Shown here in pieces: positions 14,913-64,000 of a stretch of 64,000 nt of DNA. Position 1 is the first letter of the stretch. Each line of letters opens with the position of its first letter. The position numbers and the translations under genes were made by a program. Source of the stretch: Sipunculus nudus (lineage: Eukaryota > Annelida > Sipuncula > Golfingiida > Sipunculidae); the NCBI GenBank assembly GCA_026874595.1, contig CM049321.1, positions 13,099,479-13,163,478 on the forward strand. Reading direction: 5' to 3'. Under the pieces are notes generated by a model, which saw nothing but the letters and a program-made list of their open reading frames with translations, had not been told where the DNA came from and did no database searches.

Positions 14913-15049
14913 CTCTGAGCACCTGTACGACCAACTCTAAACTACTGGTCAGCTTTTTAACCTGGTTGAAATTGGCAATGGTTGAGATCAGGACATACTG
15001 GTCGGCGTCCATTTGGGAGATCAGGTATGAATCGTTGGCCAGGTTTTCT
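14913..15049 (-). CDS. LARP4: LARP4 exon: La motif core
   Basis: Acceptor TTTTTCTGCAG, donor AGAG|GTGAGT; 137 nt, phase 2 in, phase 1 out. It encodes [20 protein letters not shown] followed by [13 protein letters not shown] and ends LVVQVLR. This is the diagnostic core of the La motif: RENLxxDxYLISQMDxDQ is strongly conserved in LARP4/4B, and the VKKLT...VLR helix closes the winged helix. With the preceding exon it makes a complete La motif of normal length. A 27-bp minisatellite lies about 210 bp upstream in the intron and does not touch the acceptor. No missing residues or frame breaks are seen. Confidence 0.96.
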
Positions 15050-19825: not shown

Positions 19826-19910
19826 CTTGAGAAGTAGTACTCCAGCTGAGTCCGTAACATCCCTCGCAGCTGGTTGTCAGGTACATTTCCTTCCAGTGGA
19901 ACTGTTTCAT
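19826..19910 (-). CDS. LARP4: LARP4 exon: start of La motif
   Basis: Acceptor TTATTTTCAG, donor TCAAG|GTCAGT; 85 nt, entering in phase 1 and leaving in phase 2. It encodes DETVPLEGNV, then the first helix of the La motif, LRGMLRTQLEYYFSR. The La motif is a winged-helix RNA-binding fold; the QLEYYFS segment contains conserved Gln and aromatic residues that contact RNA 3' ends in La proteins. Vertebrate LARP4 has a non-aromatic residue at one of these positions (as I recall, FCFS), whereas this gene keeps the canonical YYF. It joins the 14913-15049 exon through a split Arg codon to give FSRENL. Confidence 0.93.
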
Positions 19911-20469
19911 CTGAAAATAAAAAGAGAAACATTCCATGTCTTACTGTGGGAACGGTCCATAAATATAAGTAAATTTTACCTGTTACTGCAAGAACATCCG
20001 ATATACAACTGTACCTGTTTCTGTATGAACATCAGATGTGTAGGCCTATCTGTTAATGTGTGAACATTGGATGAGTAGGCCTAATTGTTACTGTGTGAAC
20101 ATCGGATGAGTAGGCCTAATTGTTACTGTGTGAACATTGGATGAGTAGGCCTAATTGTTACTGTGTGAACATCAGTTGTGTAAGCATACGTGTTACTGCG
20201 TGAACATCAGTTGTGTAAGCATACGTGTTACTGCGTGAACATCAGATGTGTAGGCATACCTATTACTGTGTGAACACTGGATGTGTAGACATACTTGTTA
20301 CTGTGTGAACATCAGATGTGTAGGCCTACCTGTTACTGTGTGAACATCAGATGTGTAGGCCTACCTGTTACTGTGTGAACATCAGATGTGTAGGCCTACC
20401 TGTTACTGTGTGAACATCAGATGTGTAGGCCTACCTGTTACTGTGTGAACATCAGATGTGTAGGCCTAC
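19911..20469 (-). other. Intron made almost wholly of the 35-bp array
   Basis: A 559-nt intron of which about 490 nt (19981-20469) is the minisatellite that begins inside the upstream exon; only about 70 nt before the acceptor is unique. Confidence 0.9.
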
Positions 20470-20505
20470 CTGTTACTGTGTGAACATCAGATGTGTAGGC
20501 CGTAT
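19981..20505 (-). repeat. 35-bp minisatellite spanning the linker-exon 5' splice site
   Basis: Fifteen units in exact 35-bp register from 19981 to 20505. The unit nearest the exon (20471-20505) is coding; the rest are intronic. Units next to the exon are near identical, while those toward 19981 diverge, as expected if homogenisation is focused near the exon. Each standard unit carries AACAG|GTAGGC and the palindrome GTAGGCCTAC. The length is not a multiple of 3, so use of another unit's donor would shift frame or meet a TAA. Confidence 0.97.
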
Positions 20506-20628
20506 CATCGGCTGTGCTGCCATTGGCGGAGGACACGCCCTGGGATGGTGTAGGGGACTCGGGGGTTGGCGGGAATGTCACCCCCGGGGGGTCTTTACCC
20601 CCTACATCACCATTCATAAATACATGAC
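20470..20628 (-). CDS. LARP4: LARP4 linker exon, Pro/Ser/Thr-rich
   Basis: It lies between acceptor TTTTATTTTCAG and donor AACAG|GTAGGC: 159 nt, entering and leaving in phase 1. It encodes GHVFMNGDVGGKDPPG, then a Pro/Ser/Thr stretch (TFPPTPESPTPSQG) and an acidic end (TADDTAYTSDVHTVT). It bridges the PAM2 motif and the La motif, a region that is disordered and poorly conserved in this family. The last 11 or so codons lie in the first unit of a 35-bp tandem array that continues into the intron, so this exon end and its donor arose from, or seeded, the repeat. If the next unit's donor were used, 35 nt including an in-frame TAA would be added. Phase agreement on both sides supports the call; the sequence itself is not diagnostic. 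Confidence 0.82.
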
Positions 20629-36000: not shown

Positions 36001-36358
36001 CTTATTTTATTTTAAACCATCACCAATAGCTTAAAGTATGGTTCATTTTTCATTTAAACCAGGTCAACTGTTAAATGTGGTTAAAGTTAACTTTCTGACA
36101 ATACTGTTCATCCACTGTGTGCCAAAAGACTGTTACAACCCTGCATGTTTGTTGAATTTCCCAGTGCAAAGAAGCAGGTCTCTGTTGGATTAGTAAAGTG
36201 ACTGCTAAGTCATGCAAGGCACAGGAAATGACACCAGTTACTATGGAGATGGGATTAAAATTTGTATATTCACACTCACACTATATTCATCTGTGTGAAT
36301 TCCTCACTCCTGGTCTAATGATTTGCATCAAGACTAAGTAGACCCTTTCTGTCTGAAG

Positions 36359-37015
36359 GAAGTGTGTTGTCTGTTGGAGGGGGCGTGGTGTACTAAAAAT
36401 CCAAAGGAAGTATGCTGTCTGTGGGAGGGGACGTGGTGTACTCACCATCTGAAGGAAGTGTGTTGTCTGTGGGAGGAGATGTGGTGTACTCACCATCTGA
36501 AGGAAGTGTGTTGTCTGTTGGAGGGGGCGTGGTGTACTAAAAATCCAAAGGAAGTATGCTGTCTGTGGGAGGGGACGCGGTGTACTCACCATCTGAAGGA
36601 AGTGTGTTGTCTGTGGGAGGAGATGTGGTGTACTCACCATCTGAAGGAAGTGTGTTGTCTGTGGGAGGAGATGTGGTGTACTCACCATCTGAAGGAAGTG
36701 TGTTGTCTGTGGGAGGAGATGTGGTGTACTCACCATCTGAAGGAAGTGTGTTGTCTGTTGGAGGGGGCGTGGTGTACTAAAAATCCAAAGGAAGTATGCT
36801 GTCTGTGGGAGGGGACGCGGTGTACTCACCATCTGAAGGAAGTGTGTTGTCTGTGGGAGGAGATGTGGTGTACTCACCATCTGAAGGAAGTGTGTTGTCT
36901 GTGGGAGGAGATGTGGTGTACTCACCATCTGAAGGAAGTGTGTTGTCTGTGGGAGGAGATGTGGTGTACTCACCATCTGAAGGAAGTGTGTTGTCTGTGG
37001 GAGGGGGCGTGGTGT
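36359..37015 (-). repeat. 48-bp minisatellite spanning the PAM2-exon 5' splice site
   Basis: Thirteen complete 48-bp units (starts 36359, 36407 ... 36935) plus a partial unit at 36983 that is exonic. Because 48 is divisible by 3, both strands stay open over hundreds of bases. Read in the LARP4 frame a standard unit encodes EYTTSPPTDNTLPSDG and contains the donor GATG|GTGAGT. Three variant units (36359, 36503, 36743) have lost the donor and carry an in-frame TAG inside GGATTTTTAG. Blocks 36503-36742 and 36743-36982 are identical over 240 bp, showing recent block duplication. Confidence 0.97.
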
Positions 37016-37118
37016 CCCCACTCCGGGGCCAGTCCCCTGGGTCTGAGGTAGGTGTTGTCGGGCTCTTACTCTGAAAGACATTGGCGTTGGGGTTCAGGCT
37101 CTGACCCTTGGGCGTGAC
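36974..37118 (-). CDS. LARP4: LARP4 exon with PAM2 (PABP-binding) motif
   Basis: This exon carries the PAM2 motif through which LARP4 proteins bind the MLLE domain of cytoplasmic poly(A)-binding protein to stabilise mRNA and promote translation. It starts after the acceptor CTTTGTAG in phase 0 and reads VTPKGQSLNPNANVFQSK; the core LNPNANVFQ is a clear PAM2. Vertebrate LARP4/4B have Trp at the position that is Phe here. A Pro/Thr/Asp-rich tail ending DNTLPSDG follows. The first available donor is GATG|GTGAGT, giving 145 nt and ending in phase 1, which fits the next exon exactly (Gly from G+GT). The donor lies in the first full unit of a 48-bp array; later units offer identical in-frame donors, so the true 3' end could vary by multiples of 16 codons. 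Confidence 0.87.
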
Positions 37119-40560: not shown

Positions 40561-41555
40561 AAAACTAGATGTGTCGGAACGACACTAATGCCCCCGCCTG
40601 GGGCAAATTAGAAACATTTGTTAAATTTTGAAAAAAATTTTAAGTTCAGGAGTCATATGGTCAAACGTAGGTCAACAAGGGCAAAATGCAAACTCGATCT
40701 GTTACAGGTCCTTATCAAGCAACACACCAAAAATCATGCTAGTATCTGTAGGGACAGTGAAAAAAAGTCCATACATGTGCATTTTCCAGAAAATTTCTGT
40801 CTTTCATGAAATTTTCTATGTTTAGGAGCCGTAAAACAATCAAAAGTAGGTCAACCGGGATGAAACGTGAACTCGTTCTGTAACTGTCATTATCTGCCGA
40901 CACATAAAAAATCAGGCCGGTATCTGCAGGCATTGCGAAAAAAAGTCCGTACATGTGCACTTTTTTATGAAATTTTCTATGTTAGAGCACCATCAAACGG
41001 TCAAAAGTAGGTAAACTGGGACAAAACATGAACTCGATCTGTAACTGGTCATTATCTGCCTACACACCAAAAATCAGGCGAATATCTGCAGGCATTGCCA
41101 AAAAAAATCTGTACATATGTATTTGTCATGAAAATTAATATTTTTCATGAAATTTTCTAAGTTAAGGAGCCGTAAAACGGTCAAAAGTAGGTCAACTGGG
41201 AAGAAATGTGAACTCCATCTGTAACTTGTCATTATCTGCCTACACACCAAAAATCAGACCAATATCTGCAGGCATTGCGAAAAAAAGTCTGTACATATGT
41301 ATTTCCCATGAAAATAATATTTTTCATGAAATTTTCTAAGTTAAGGAGCCGTAAAACGGTCAAAAGTAGGTCTACTGGGACGAAACGCGAACTCGATCTG
41401 TAACTGGTCATTACCTCCCCACACACCAAAAATCAGGCCAATATCTGCAGGCATTGCGAAAAAAAGTCCGTACAACTGTTTTATTTCGGAAGGATGGAAG
41501 GACGGACATGGGTAAAACTATATGCCCTGGCCACTTTGTGGAGGGGGCATAAAAA
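40561..41555. mobile_element. Pearl/Helitron-like element with ~180-bp tandem core, copy 1
   Basis: The left end is AACTAGATGTGTCGGAACGA; it includes the perfect hairpin GTGTCG-GAA-CGACAC and then ATGCCCCCGCC at 40588. The right end is GGAGGGGGCAT at 41540-41550. The body holds about five diverged 170-180 bp units, each with AAAAGTAGGTCAAC-GGG, CATTATCTGCC and AAAAAAAGTCCGTACA. A GGACGGA tract precedes the right end. It has no coding capacity. Confidence 0.8.
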
Positions 41556-53595: not shown

Positions 53596-55653
53596 AACTA
53601 GATGTGTCGGTACGACACGAATGCCCCCGCCTGGGGCAAATTAGAAACATTTGTTAAATTTTGTAAAATTTTTTTAAGTTCAGGAGGTGTTGTATGGTCA
53701 AAAGTAGGTCAAGAAGGGCAAAATGCAAACTCGATCTGTAACGGGTCATTATCAAGGAACACACCAAAAATCAGGCCAGTATGCAGGCACTGTGAAAAAA
53801 AGTCCATACATGTGCATTTTTCATAAAAATTTCTCTTTCATGAAATTTTCTATATTCAGGATCTGTCATATGGTCAAAAATAGGTTAACTGGGATGAAAC
53901 GCGAACTTGACCTTTAAGTGGTCATTATGCGCCTACAGACTAAACATTGGGCCAGTATCTGTAAGCATTGTATTGCGAAACTAGAATATTAGCAAAAGCT
54001 GGTAATCAGTTATAAATTTAAATTGGAGAGGTATGTACCATGTTTTATAACAATCCACCAAATGCTTCCTGAGAAATATCCCCCTAAGTTTTTTTTCTAT
54101 ACTAAGCTCTGTGACCTTGAAGAGTAGATGAAGACCACCCATCTTTGAACCTGACAAAGATTTTGTAAATATGATGCAAAAGCACTGAAGTAATGAAGTT
54201 CCTTAGTTGAATACCTTTGGAGATATCCTGCACAAAGGGCAAAATTGAAAATCCGATAAAATTTCATTAAAAAATCAGAAATTGCAGGTGACGCCACCAA
54301 AATTGTGCAGAACGTACAGACCATCAGTCCCAATGATCATAGTAAGTTTTGTGAAAATCCACACAATGGTTCCTGAGATATAAGCTTCTGAGTGTTTTTC
54401 TATAATCAGCTCTAAAATGTAGAAAAATGGGTCAAGGTCACCCATCTTCGAACTTGACTGAGATTTTATCGATATACATCTTCACTGATGAAATAAAATT
54501 CCAACGGTGAATCCTTTTAGAGATATCCCGCTCACAAGGTAAAAGTTAACAGACGCGGAACAGACAGACGGACGGACGGACATCGACAGACAGATGGACG
54601 GATAGACGGACAGCTTGTGTAACGACAATAGCCCATCAGCCTATGAGCTGAGGGCTAAAAACGGCTGTACATGTACATTTGTCATCAAAATTAATTTTCA
54701 TGAAATTTTCTATTTTTAGGAGCTGTAAAACAATCAAAAGTAGGTAAACCGGGACGAAACGCGAACTTGAACTGTAACTGGTCATTATCTGCATACACAC
54801 CAAAAATCAGGCCAATATCTGCAAGCATTGTAAAAAAAAGTCCGTACAGGTGTATTTGTCATGAAAATTTCTATTTTTCATGAAATTTTCTAAGTTTAGG
54901 AGCCGTAAAACAGTCAAAAGTAGGTCAACCGGGACAAAACGCGAACTCGATCTGTAACTGGTCATTATCTGCCCACACACCAAAAATCAGGCCAATATCT
55001 GCAGGCATTGCGAAAAAAAGTCCGTACATGTGTATTTGTCATGAAAATTTCTATTTTTCATGAAATTTTCTAAGTTTAGGAGCTGTAAAACAGTCAAAAG
55101 TAGGTCAACCGGGACAAAACGCGAACTCGATCTGTAACTGGTCATTATCTGCCCACACACCAAAAATCAGGCCAATATCTGCAGGCATTGCGAAAAAAAG
55201 TCCGTACATGTGTATTTGTCATGAAAATTTCTATTTTTCATGAAATTTTCTAAGTTTAGGAGCCGTAAAACAGTCAAAAGTAGGTCAACTGGGACGAAAC
55301 GCGAACCCGATCTGTAACTGGTCATTATCTGCCCACACACCAAAAATCAGGCCAATATCTGCAGGCATTGCGAAAAAAAGTCCGTACATGTGTATTTGTC
55401 ATGAAAATTTCTATTTTTCATGAAATTTTCTAAGTTTAGGAGCCGTAAAACAGTCAAAAGTAGGTCAACCGGGACGAAACGCGAACTCGATCTGTAACTG
55501 GTCATTATCTGCCCACACACAAAAAATCAGGCCAATATCTGCAGGCATTGCGAAAAAAAGTCCGTACAACTGTTTTATTTCGGAAGGACGGAAGGACGGA
55601 ATGACGGACATGGGTAAACTTATATGCCCCGGCCACTTTGTGGCGGGGGCATA
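53596..55653. mobile_element. Pearl/Helitron-like element with ~180-bp tandem core, copy 2
   Basis: The same ends as the 40.6-kb copy, here perfect: hairpin GTGTCG-GTA-CGACAC at 53604-53618, ATGCCCCCGCC at 53621 and GGCGGGGGCAT at 55642-55652. There are about seven core units; those from 54840 on are almost identical at exactly 180-bp spacing. A 680-bp element of another family (53981-54658) is nested in the third unit. Confidence 0.85.
53981..54658. mobile_element. Element of the GGTCAAGGTCACCCATCTT family nested in the pearl-like copy
   Basis: Interrupts a 180-bp unit between GCATTGTATTGCGAAA and AAAACGGCTGTACATG. It shares GAGAGGTATGTACCATG, GGTCAAGGTCACCCATCTT, GATATCC-GCTCACAAGG and the end AGCCCATCAGCCTATGAGCT with 30057-33712. 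GGACGGACGGAC tracts lie near the right end. Confidence 0.8.
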
Positions 55654-61102: not shown

Positions 61103-62670
61103 ACAAGTGACCCATGGGTCATGACGCTCAGCTGACTGGGAAAAGATTCGCAAAAGGAAATTTTATCATCAGAATGGTAGTATATACCCATTCAACTGAA
61201 GCATCAAACAGATTAACCAACAGGCCAAGATTTAGTCTGTATTTATATATCTCAAAAATAGAGAAAAATGTGTAAACTTTTAAAACTAGAATACAGGTAA
61301 CCGACAAGTGACTACATGTATCTGCCAAAATCGGATAGTGAGGCATGGATTGAGTGGCAAGGGGAAATAGAGTGAGGTATGTTGCATATTAGCATGGATG
61401 TCTGCAGCCTAAATGTGTATGTAGGTTGTGCCACCTACCACAAATCCAGAAAGCTGTCCAAGTTGTATACACCTGCAAAATTTTAGGCAGAAAAGTCAAA
61501 CCACTACATGTATATGAGCGATTTTTGCCCATGGCAGACAAACAGACAAACATTGTGCAAAAATCTTTGCAGGTAACCCCTCCAGTTTTGTGTATGATAA
61601 AGACCTATGTGAGATCTAAACACATGCACAATTTTGGCCCAATCGGTCAAATGGTTCCTGAGATATGAGCTTGGATGTGTCCAGCGTTAACTAGAATGTA
61701 GGTGGCGCCACCTGTCATAAAATCAAGAAAGCTGTCCACGATGTATAAACCTGCAAAATTTTAGGCAGTTATGTCGAACCACTACAGAGAAATGAGTGAT
61801 TTTAGGCCAACAGAGGTAACAGAGACCTAATTTCTGGTTCCATGGAGACTTTTCATAGGTCTCTCAGTGTGTCGAAAATGAAGATTCTAGGTCCAGTCGT
61901 TACGATTTGTGCCACGCTAACAGATGACAGCATCCTCAAAGGTCTCAAAAATAGAGGAAAAAATCGTAAAAAATCAAACAGTAGAGGTGGCGCCACCAGT
62001 CTGCAGGAACTGATCGAACATCATGATCAATATGTATGCAAAAAATGAAGACCATCAGTGATGTAGTTATTGAGATATTGAAGTTTTTGTATGAAATTTT
62101 TTACTATTCTGGGGGGTACTTTGGGGCCCCATAGCTCAAAGGATATGGGTAACAGAGACCTAATTTCTGGTTTCCAAGGAGATTTTTCATGGACCTCTCA
62201 GTGTGTCAAGAATTAAGATTCTAAGTCCAGTCTTTATGATTTGTGCCTAGTTAACAGATGTTCACATTTTTAAAGGTCTCAAAAATAGAGAAAAAAATTC
62301 GTAAAAAATCGAAAAATACAGGTGGCGCCACCAGTCTGCAGGAAGTGATGTAACATCTCATGATCAATATGTATGCCAAAAATCATGACCATCAGTCAAG
62401 TAGTTAATGAGATATTGAAGTTTTTGTATGAAATTTTTGACTTTTCTGGGGGGTACTTTGGGGCCCCATAGCTCGAAGGATATGGGTAACAGAGACCTAA
62501 TTTCTGGTATCCAAGGAGATTTTTTATGGACCTCTCAGAATCCCAAGTTACAAGGTTCTAGGTCCAGCGGTTACGATTTGTGCCTGGTTAACGGACGGAC
62601 AGACGGACAGGCGGACGACGGACAGAGTGATCGCTATAGCTCAGATGACTTTCAGTCAGCTGAGCTAAAA
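61103..62670. mobile_element. 1.6-kb element with the same ends as the 30.4-kb element
   Basis: Begins ACAAGTGACCCATGGGTCAT, GACGCTCAGCTGACT and ends CAGATGACTTTCAGTCAGCT, GAGCTAAAA. The interior has ~333-bp tandem units marked by GGTAACAGAGACCTAATTTC (about 61815, 62148, 62484) with AGGTGGCGCCACCAGTCTGC between them, plus a GGACGGACAGACGG tract. No coding capacity. Confidence 0.75.
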
Positions 62671-63086: not shown

Positions 63087-64000
63087 TATCCGCCAAAACA
63101 GAGTTTTGCGGATACTATGTTTTCAGCTGGTCGCCGCCACCGCCACCGCCGCCGCCGCGTAGGTGTCCGGAGAACTCCTCCGTAACCGCTGGGCAGAATT
63201 TTCCGAAACCCGGGATTATGTTCGGGTCACATGTGAACTGCTGCGCCCCGATTTTGTTTTGACCTCTGACCTTTCCTCTGCGCTCTGCGTCCGTTTGTGC
63301 GTCTGTTTCCACACATAAACCCACATATCTCGGGAACCGTTTGACCGATCAGGAAAATTTTTTTGCACAAATGTAGCCCTCGGAGAGCTTTATAACATAC
63401 ACCAAAAATGGTGGCGCCACCTGCAACCATGTTTGCACAGTGTCCATCTGTTCGTCTGCCTTGGGTTAAAATCACTCATATCTCTGCAGTGACTTGACTA
63501 ATTCACCTGAAATTCGGCATGCGCAAACATCCTGGATAGCTTTTCTGATTTTATGACAGGTGGCGCCACCTACATTCACGTTGACGCTGCAGACATCCAA
63601 GCTCATATCTCGGGAACCGTTTGACCGATCAGGAAAATTCTTTTGCACAAATGTAGCCCTTGGAGAGCTTTATAACATACACCAAAAATGGTGGCGCCAC
63701 CTGCAACCATGTTTGCACAGTGTCCATCTGTTCGTCTGCCTTGGGTTAAAATCACTCATATCTCTGCAGTGACTTCGCTAATTCACCTGAAATTTGGCAT
63801 GCGTATACATCCTGGATAGCTTATCTGATTTTATGACAGGTGGCGCCACCTACATTCACGTTTACGCTGCAGACATCCAAGCTCATATCTCGGGAACCGT
63901 TTGACCGATCAGGAAAATTCTTTTGCACAAATGTAGCCCTTGGAGAGCTTTATAACATACACCAAAAATGGTGCCGCTACCTGCAACCATGTTTGTACAG
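63087..64000. mobile_element. Hairpin-headed element with ~280-bp tandem array, cut by window end
   Basis: Starts with an imperfect hairpin TATCCGCCAAAACAGAGTTT, TGCGGATA, then a CCG/CCA-rich stretch (63130-63160). From about 63320 a ~280-bp unit repeats: ATATCTCGGGAACCGTTTGA recurs near 63327, 63606 and 63885. Each unit has two GGTGGCGCCACC palindromes; the last is mutated to GGTGCCGCTACC. It is the reverse complement of modules at 52.7 and 61.4 kb. Confidence 0.8.

Follow-up and report, generated by a model that had tools for sequence, protein, structure and literature searches.

Why does an exon of Sipunculus nudus run into a series of copies of its own 5' splice site, and do these copies serve to vary the protein? 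We studied this question in a window of 64,000 nucleotides (the whole stretch of DNA analyzed; all coordinates refer to it), where the original prediction placed a 48-bp in-frame array repeating the donor GATG/GTGAGT (the slash marks the exon-intron boundary) on a PAM2 exon and proposed that splicing could add 0 to 3 copies of the unit to the protein.

We began with the identity of the gene, which lies on the minus strand together with all features described below unless otherwise stated. Exons 1 to 4 (37118-36974, 20628-20470, 19910-19826, and 15049-14913) join in frame, and with exons 3 to 6 as the query the best PDB match was La-related protein 4 (6i9b; E = 1.8e-65). The same query gave E values of 1.9e-12 for LARP1 and 3.1e-12 for La, i.e., among La-related proteins of known structure, the La module is closest to that of LARP4. 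Judged by these matches, the gene carrying the 48-bp array is LARP4. Exon 3 (19826..19910) holds the start of the La module, as indicated by in-frame joining and the PDB match, and exon 4 (14913..15049) holds the La domain (Pfam PF05383; E = 1.2e-17). The first coding exon of the gene was not found, and exon numbering here starts at the PAM2 exon. There are five La-domain places in the genome including this one, and LARP4 is likely single-copy.

The PAM2 exon (36974..37118) lies between the acceptor TTTCTTTGTAG/ and the donor ATG/GTGAGT, joins exons 2 to 4 without a stop, and encodes VTPKGQSLNPNANVFQSKS followed by a Thr/Ser/Pro-rich sequence that ends at GATG/GTGAGT. Within SLNPNANVFQS, the L, A, and F residues fit the spacing of the N-terminal PAM2 consensus XXLXXXAXXFXP, as given in the available text of PMC6486636, and the final P is absent. 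A search of PDB sequences with the PAM2-like stretch returned no PAM2 match, and an E value of 0.75 to an unrelated stretch of UBR5. The exon had been predicted to carry a PAM2 motif, and it does encode a PAM2-like core, SLNPNANVF, in a LARP4 gene. When the first donor is used, ca. 106 residues separate the PAM2 Leu from the start of the La-module match. The corresponding distance in human LARP4A is 96 residues, from L15 to residue 111 (PMC6486636, available portion), so that the donor 1 spacing is already slightly above the human value, and each extra unit would add 16 residues.

TRF delimited the array at 36352-37015 (period of 48, 13.8 copies, score of 1020), and unit alignment resolved it into 14 in-register units, beginning inside the PAM2 exon. 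Both this and the unit-by-unit listing bear out the prediction of an in-frame array that repeats the donor. The first unit consists of ca. 42 exonic and 6 intronic nucleotides. The donor is intact in 10 of the 14 units (1 to 4, 6 to 9, 11, and 12), while in units 5, 10, and 13, GATGGTGAGT has become GATTTTTAGT, by which the donor is lost and an in-frame TAG is gained (the first one at 36777..36779); unit 14 ends in ACA/GAAAGG. Units 2, 3, 4, 7, 8, 9, and 12 are identical to one another. A second form is common to units 6 and 11 and recurs with two changes in unit 14, and a third, common to units 5 and 10, recurs with one change in unit 13. The result is a higher-order repeat of five units, with blocks 1 to 5 and 6 to 10 followed by a shorter last block (11 to 14). 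A DNA search of the 1.43-Gb assembly, by a method that can miss repeats, matched this locus only. Two other frames are open across the array (36338-37051 on the plus strand, 237 codons, and 36287-37093 on the minus strand, 268 codons), as expected from a period that is a multiple of three. The window has other arrays with units of ca. 160 to 340 bp (TRF, 40802-41474, 54667-55568, 61815-62592, and 63324-64000), the first two of which share a related unit by eye.

In order to establish which donors are compatible with a protein, each intact donor was joined in silico to LARP4 exons 2 to 4. Four of them, with exon ends at 36974, 36926, 36878, and 36830, keep the frame open and add 0, 16, 32, and 48 residues, respectively, as the claim of 0 to 3 added copies required, whereas the other six (36734, 36686, 36638, 36590, 36494, and 36446) meet a stop after residue 113. 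The predicted order of four donors and then a TAG-bearing unit was right, but the unit positions given for it (36935, 36887, 36839, 36791, and 36743) were each 38 nt too low; the first intron bases are 36973, 36925, 36877, and 36829 at the four donors and 36781 at the degenerate site. The four donors are identical and retain the frame, as had been proposed, and all ten pair equally well with the 5' end of U1 (-8.9 kcal/mol each), indicating that site strength does not select among them. The U1 sequence used, ATACTTACCTG, was found in two U1 loci of the assembly. U1 snRNA as a whole gave 42 equal-score matches in two clusters of tandem units of ca. 2.8 kb on contig C6 (ca. 50.26 to 50.37 Mb and 88.24 to 88.30 Mb). 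A mollusc hemocyanin model, searched with no positive control, gave no match.

The open frame through the array follows from the origin of the unit, which is mostly exon derived and has a period that is a multiple of three. We therefore rejected frame keeping as evidence of function, given that a period is divisible by three about one-third of the time by chance and that ca. 42 of the 48 nt come from the exon.

A second array in the same gene provides an internal comparison. Exon 2 (20470..20628) ends in CAG/GTAGGC inside the first unit of a 35-bp minisatellite (20012..20501; TRF, units, and joining) that takes in its donor and fills most of the second intron; five identical CAG/GTAGGC donors, with exon ends at 20470, 20435, 20400, 20365, and 20330, are followed by decaying copies deeper in the intron. 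In silico joining from every extra exon 2 donor led to a stop after residue 111. Thus, an identical layout exists where the additional donors cannot yield a useful protein but only truncate it, which argues against a linker whose length is set by splicing. Two of the eight LARP4 donors placed (the one at exon 5, which is weak, was located by eye) lie within arrays.

To put this into perspective, we estimated how often arrays span splice sites in this genome, using a sample of 174 exons, not chosen for arrays, from 75 myosin-head matches and 99 of 126 kinesin matches, each with 400 to 450 nt of flank. Splice sites were called by a home-made score, and the strict count excluded those without a confident call (43 donors and 25 acceptors, out of 174 each). 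A further 89 SNF2 matches were left out because many are on small contigs with long uninterrupted frames; the SNF2-like matches on such contigs (for example, C61, C62, C66, C69, C72, C74, C83, C89, C90, and C130) fall within frames of ca. 960 to 5,066 codons and may come from mobile, viral, or foreign DNA. By TRF, arrays span 3 of the 131 scorable donors (L029, L050, and L128) and 5 of the 149 scorable acceptors (L044, L073, L077, L118, and L126), i.e., ca. 2 to 3% of the sampled splice sites, an estimate from a small sample of two motor-domain families. A looser inspection by eye, covering the 75 myosin exons, found donor-spanning arrays in five (L001, L024, L029, L037, and L050), suggesting that the strict count is conservative.

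The distribution of arrays around exon edges gave no support to a hot spot at donors. On the donor side, arrays cover 3.6% of the first 20 intronic nucleotides and 2.6 to 5.3% of deeper positions, with 1.7% of the last 20 exonic nucleotides, 0 to 0.9% at 100 to 20 nt inside the exon, and 1.8% in the outermost bin. At acceptors, the values were 4.0% for the adjoining 20 intronic nucleotides, 5.5 to 8.1% deeper, and 2.6% for the first 20 exonic nucleotides. A copy test, which looked within 300 nt for near-copies of a 30-nt segment around each donor, was positive for 3 of 130 donors, for 5/128, 2/121, 2/121, and 1/70 probes placed just downstream in the introns, and for none of 131 exon interiors; for acceptors, the corresponding figures were 4/148, with 4/135, 7/138, 4/135, and 2/85 in introns. 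The two approaches disagreed at single loci (L096 in the copy test only and L077 and L118 in TRF only). Together, coverage and the copy test suggest that arrays cross exon edges at roughly the rate at which they occupy introns, and such boundary crossing by arrays appears to be fairly common in the S. nudus genome. In the whole assembly, three copies of GGTGAGT with starts 25 to 53 nt apart gave 2,708 matches (2,055 for the pattern read backwards), and the permuted motif GTGGAGT gave 1,599 (3,772 backwards). These counts show no clear excess of the donor motif, and since long arrays dominate them, they inform neither way on donor-seeded arrays.

The three donor-spanning arrays of the strict count differ in their coding consequences. 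Two have periods divisible by three: 36 bp in L029, with a stop 8 nt past the donor, and 30 bp in L050, where the frame runs through one additional donor copy (+30) to a stop at +36. The third, L128, has a period of 52 bp, not divisible by three, and is open for 165 nt, with extra donors (at least 9/10 identity) that begin at +148 and are out of frame.

Given exon 2 and the arrays in other genes, the four-donor ladder of the PAM2 exon needs no special explanation. We favor, with a probability of about three in four, a donor-side "mirage," that is, a boundary minisatellite in which donor 1 is dominant and the extra donors are tolerated. The array crosses the donor at 36974 and carries a splice signal within 10 of its 14 units, as mirages do. 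The minisatellite would have arisen when the end of the PAM2 exon, with the first few intron bases, was duplicated in tandem, and would then have been expanded and homogenized, including the duplication of a five-unit block. Because the donor sits inside the unit it was multiplied with it, and, 48 being divisible by three, the frame was copied along with the exon end, so that the openness of units 2 to 4 is inherited. Most transcripts would join the exon-proximal donor at 36974 to the acceptor before 20628. Occasional use of donors 2 to 4, plausible at a low level, would add 16 to 48 residues of Thr/Ser/Pro-rich linker, while later donors would give truncated messages that are probably degraded; the extra donors would have no selected role. 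We infer the dominance of donor 1 from the reported noninterference of amphioxus mirages with splicing and from a donor 1 spacing close to that of human LARP4A.

Two considerations weigh against this reading. Donors 1 to 4 are identical and equally strong, so that no property of the sites gives the first one an advantage, and classical work suggests that among strong competing donors, the intron-proximal one can win. In addition, 2 of 8 LARP4 donors in arrays exceeds the sampled rate; the chance of at least 2 of 8 at that rate is P = 0.013, a post hoc value that counts mildly against pure chance in this gene.

Among the alternatives to the tolerated mirage, the proposal that donors 1 to 4 are used alternatively and, together with a copy number varying between individuals, make the disordered linker that connects PAM2 to the La module adjustable in length appears unlikely. 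The four identical in-frame donors would allow it, and linker length could matter, since in human LARP4A a main contact for oligoA and PABP is the N-terminal region with its PAM2w (PMC6486636, available portion). However, apart from the truncating layout of exon 2, exon-edge arrays are present in genes elsewhere in the genome, roughly one such array in three would keep the frame anyway, the donors past the stop are no less intact than the preceding ones, and the spacing with donor 1 already slightly exceeds that of human LARP4A. Decidedly unlikely, in our view, is a broader version, a frame-neutral ladder that would add 0 to 3 units of 16 residues or microexon modules of 7 residues, the proportions depending on an unstable copy number, so that LARP4, a poly(A)- and PABP-binding protein, would vary between individuals or cells; more broadly, the genome could act as a live system of intron and exon birth from minisatellites.

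A partial assembly artefact in the copy number or in the order of the blocks is very improbable: identical units and repeated blocks are error prone for assemblies, and the assembly has a single copy of the locus, but several distinct unit variants occur in a coherent order, the end units have diverged, and boundary arrays are found at other loci too. Slightly less likely still is that splicing also takes place within the array, with each unit acting as a 21-nt frame-neutral microexon from an acceptor-like CCCACAG (the first, CTCCTCCCACAG/, at approximately 36946..36965, one per unit and in the donor's phase) to the donor, as an early stage of intron and exon gain by tandem duplication. In its favor, the acceptor-like site scores 4.5 versus 4.3 for the PAM2 exon's own acceptor on a simple scale, donor and acceptor share a phase, 56 of 132 combinations (first four donors and introns of at least 60 nt) stay open, and intron gain from mirages has been proposed for amphioxus globins (PMC3087553, available portion); against it, the acceptor score is home-made and the shortest intron of this kind measures 75 nt.

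With 3 of 131 donors and 5 of 149 acceptors spanned by arrays, the S. nudus genome holds many natural experiments on two matters: how the spliceosome picks one of several identical splice sites in tandem, and how introns are gained when sequence is duplicated in tandem. LARP4 lends itself well to such tests, since donors 1 to 4 of exon 1 can be translated, in contrast to the additional ones of exon 2. One study has reportedly described intron gain through tandem duplication carrying splice signals; the signals are copied there as in the LARP4 array, which, in contrast, sits at an existing boundary with no new intron shown. Our literature search, which covered few subscription papers, found no report of the genome-wide frequency of boundary arrays or of a LARP4 case.

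Vertebrate LARP4 and LARP4B likewise have an N-terminal PAM2-type motif, PAM2w, ahead of the La module, but with Trp at the key position where this LARP4 has Phe; the available portions of those accounts do not mention an array (PMC6486636 and PMC7356810). In human genes within segmental duplications, variable internal tandem repeats located at exon-intron boundaries are likewise minisatellites able to alter splicing, and in the accessible text of PMC2812944, their alternative transcripts and novel introns are transcript supported, while the LARP4 array is read from genomic sequence. By its architecture, the 48-bp array matches the known kind of mirage minisatellite, the closest known system. 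Such boundary minisatellites were previously described in a few amphioxus genes, among them Adh3 and globin genes, and were reported not to disturb regular splicing (PMC3087553, available portion). Unlike these, the array described here, read from the sequence of one assembly, belongs to a different gene, and its 48-bp unit keeps the frame and provides four translatable donors.
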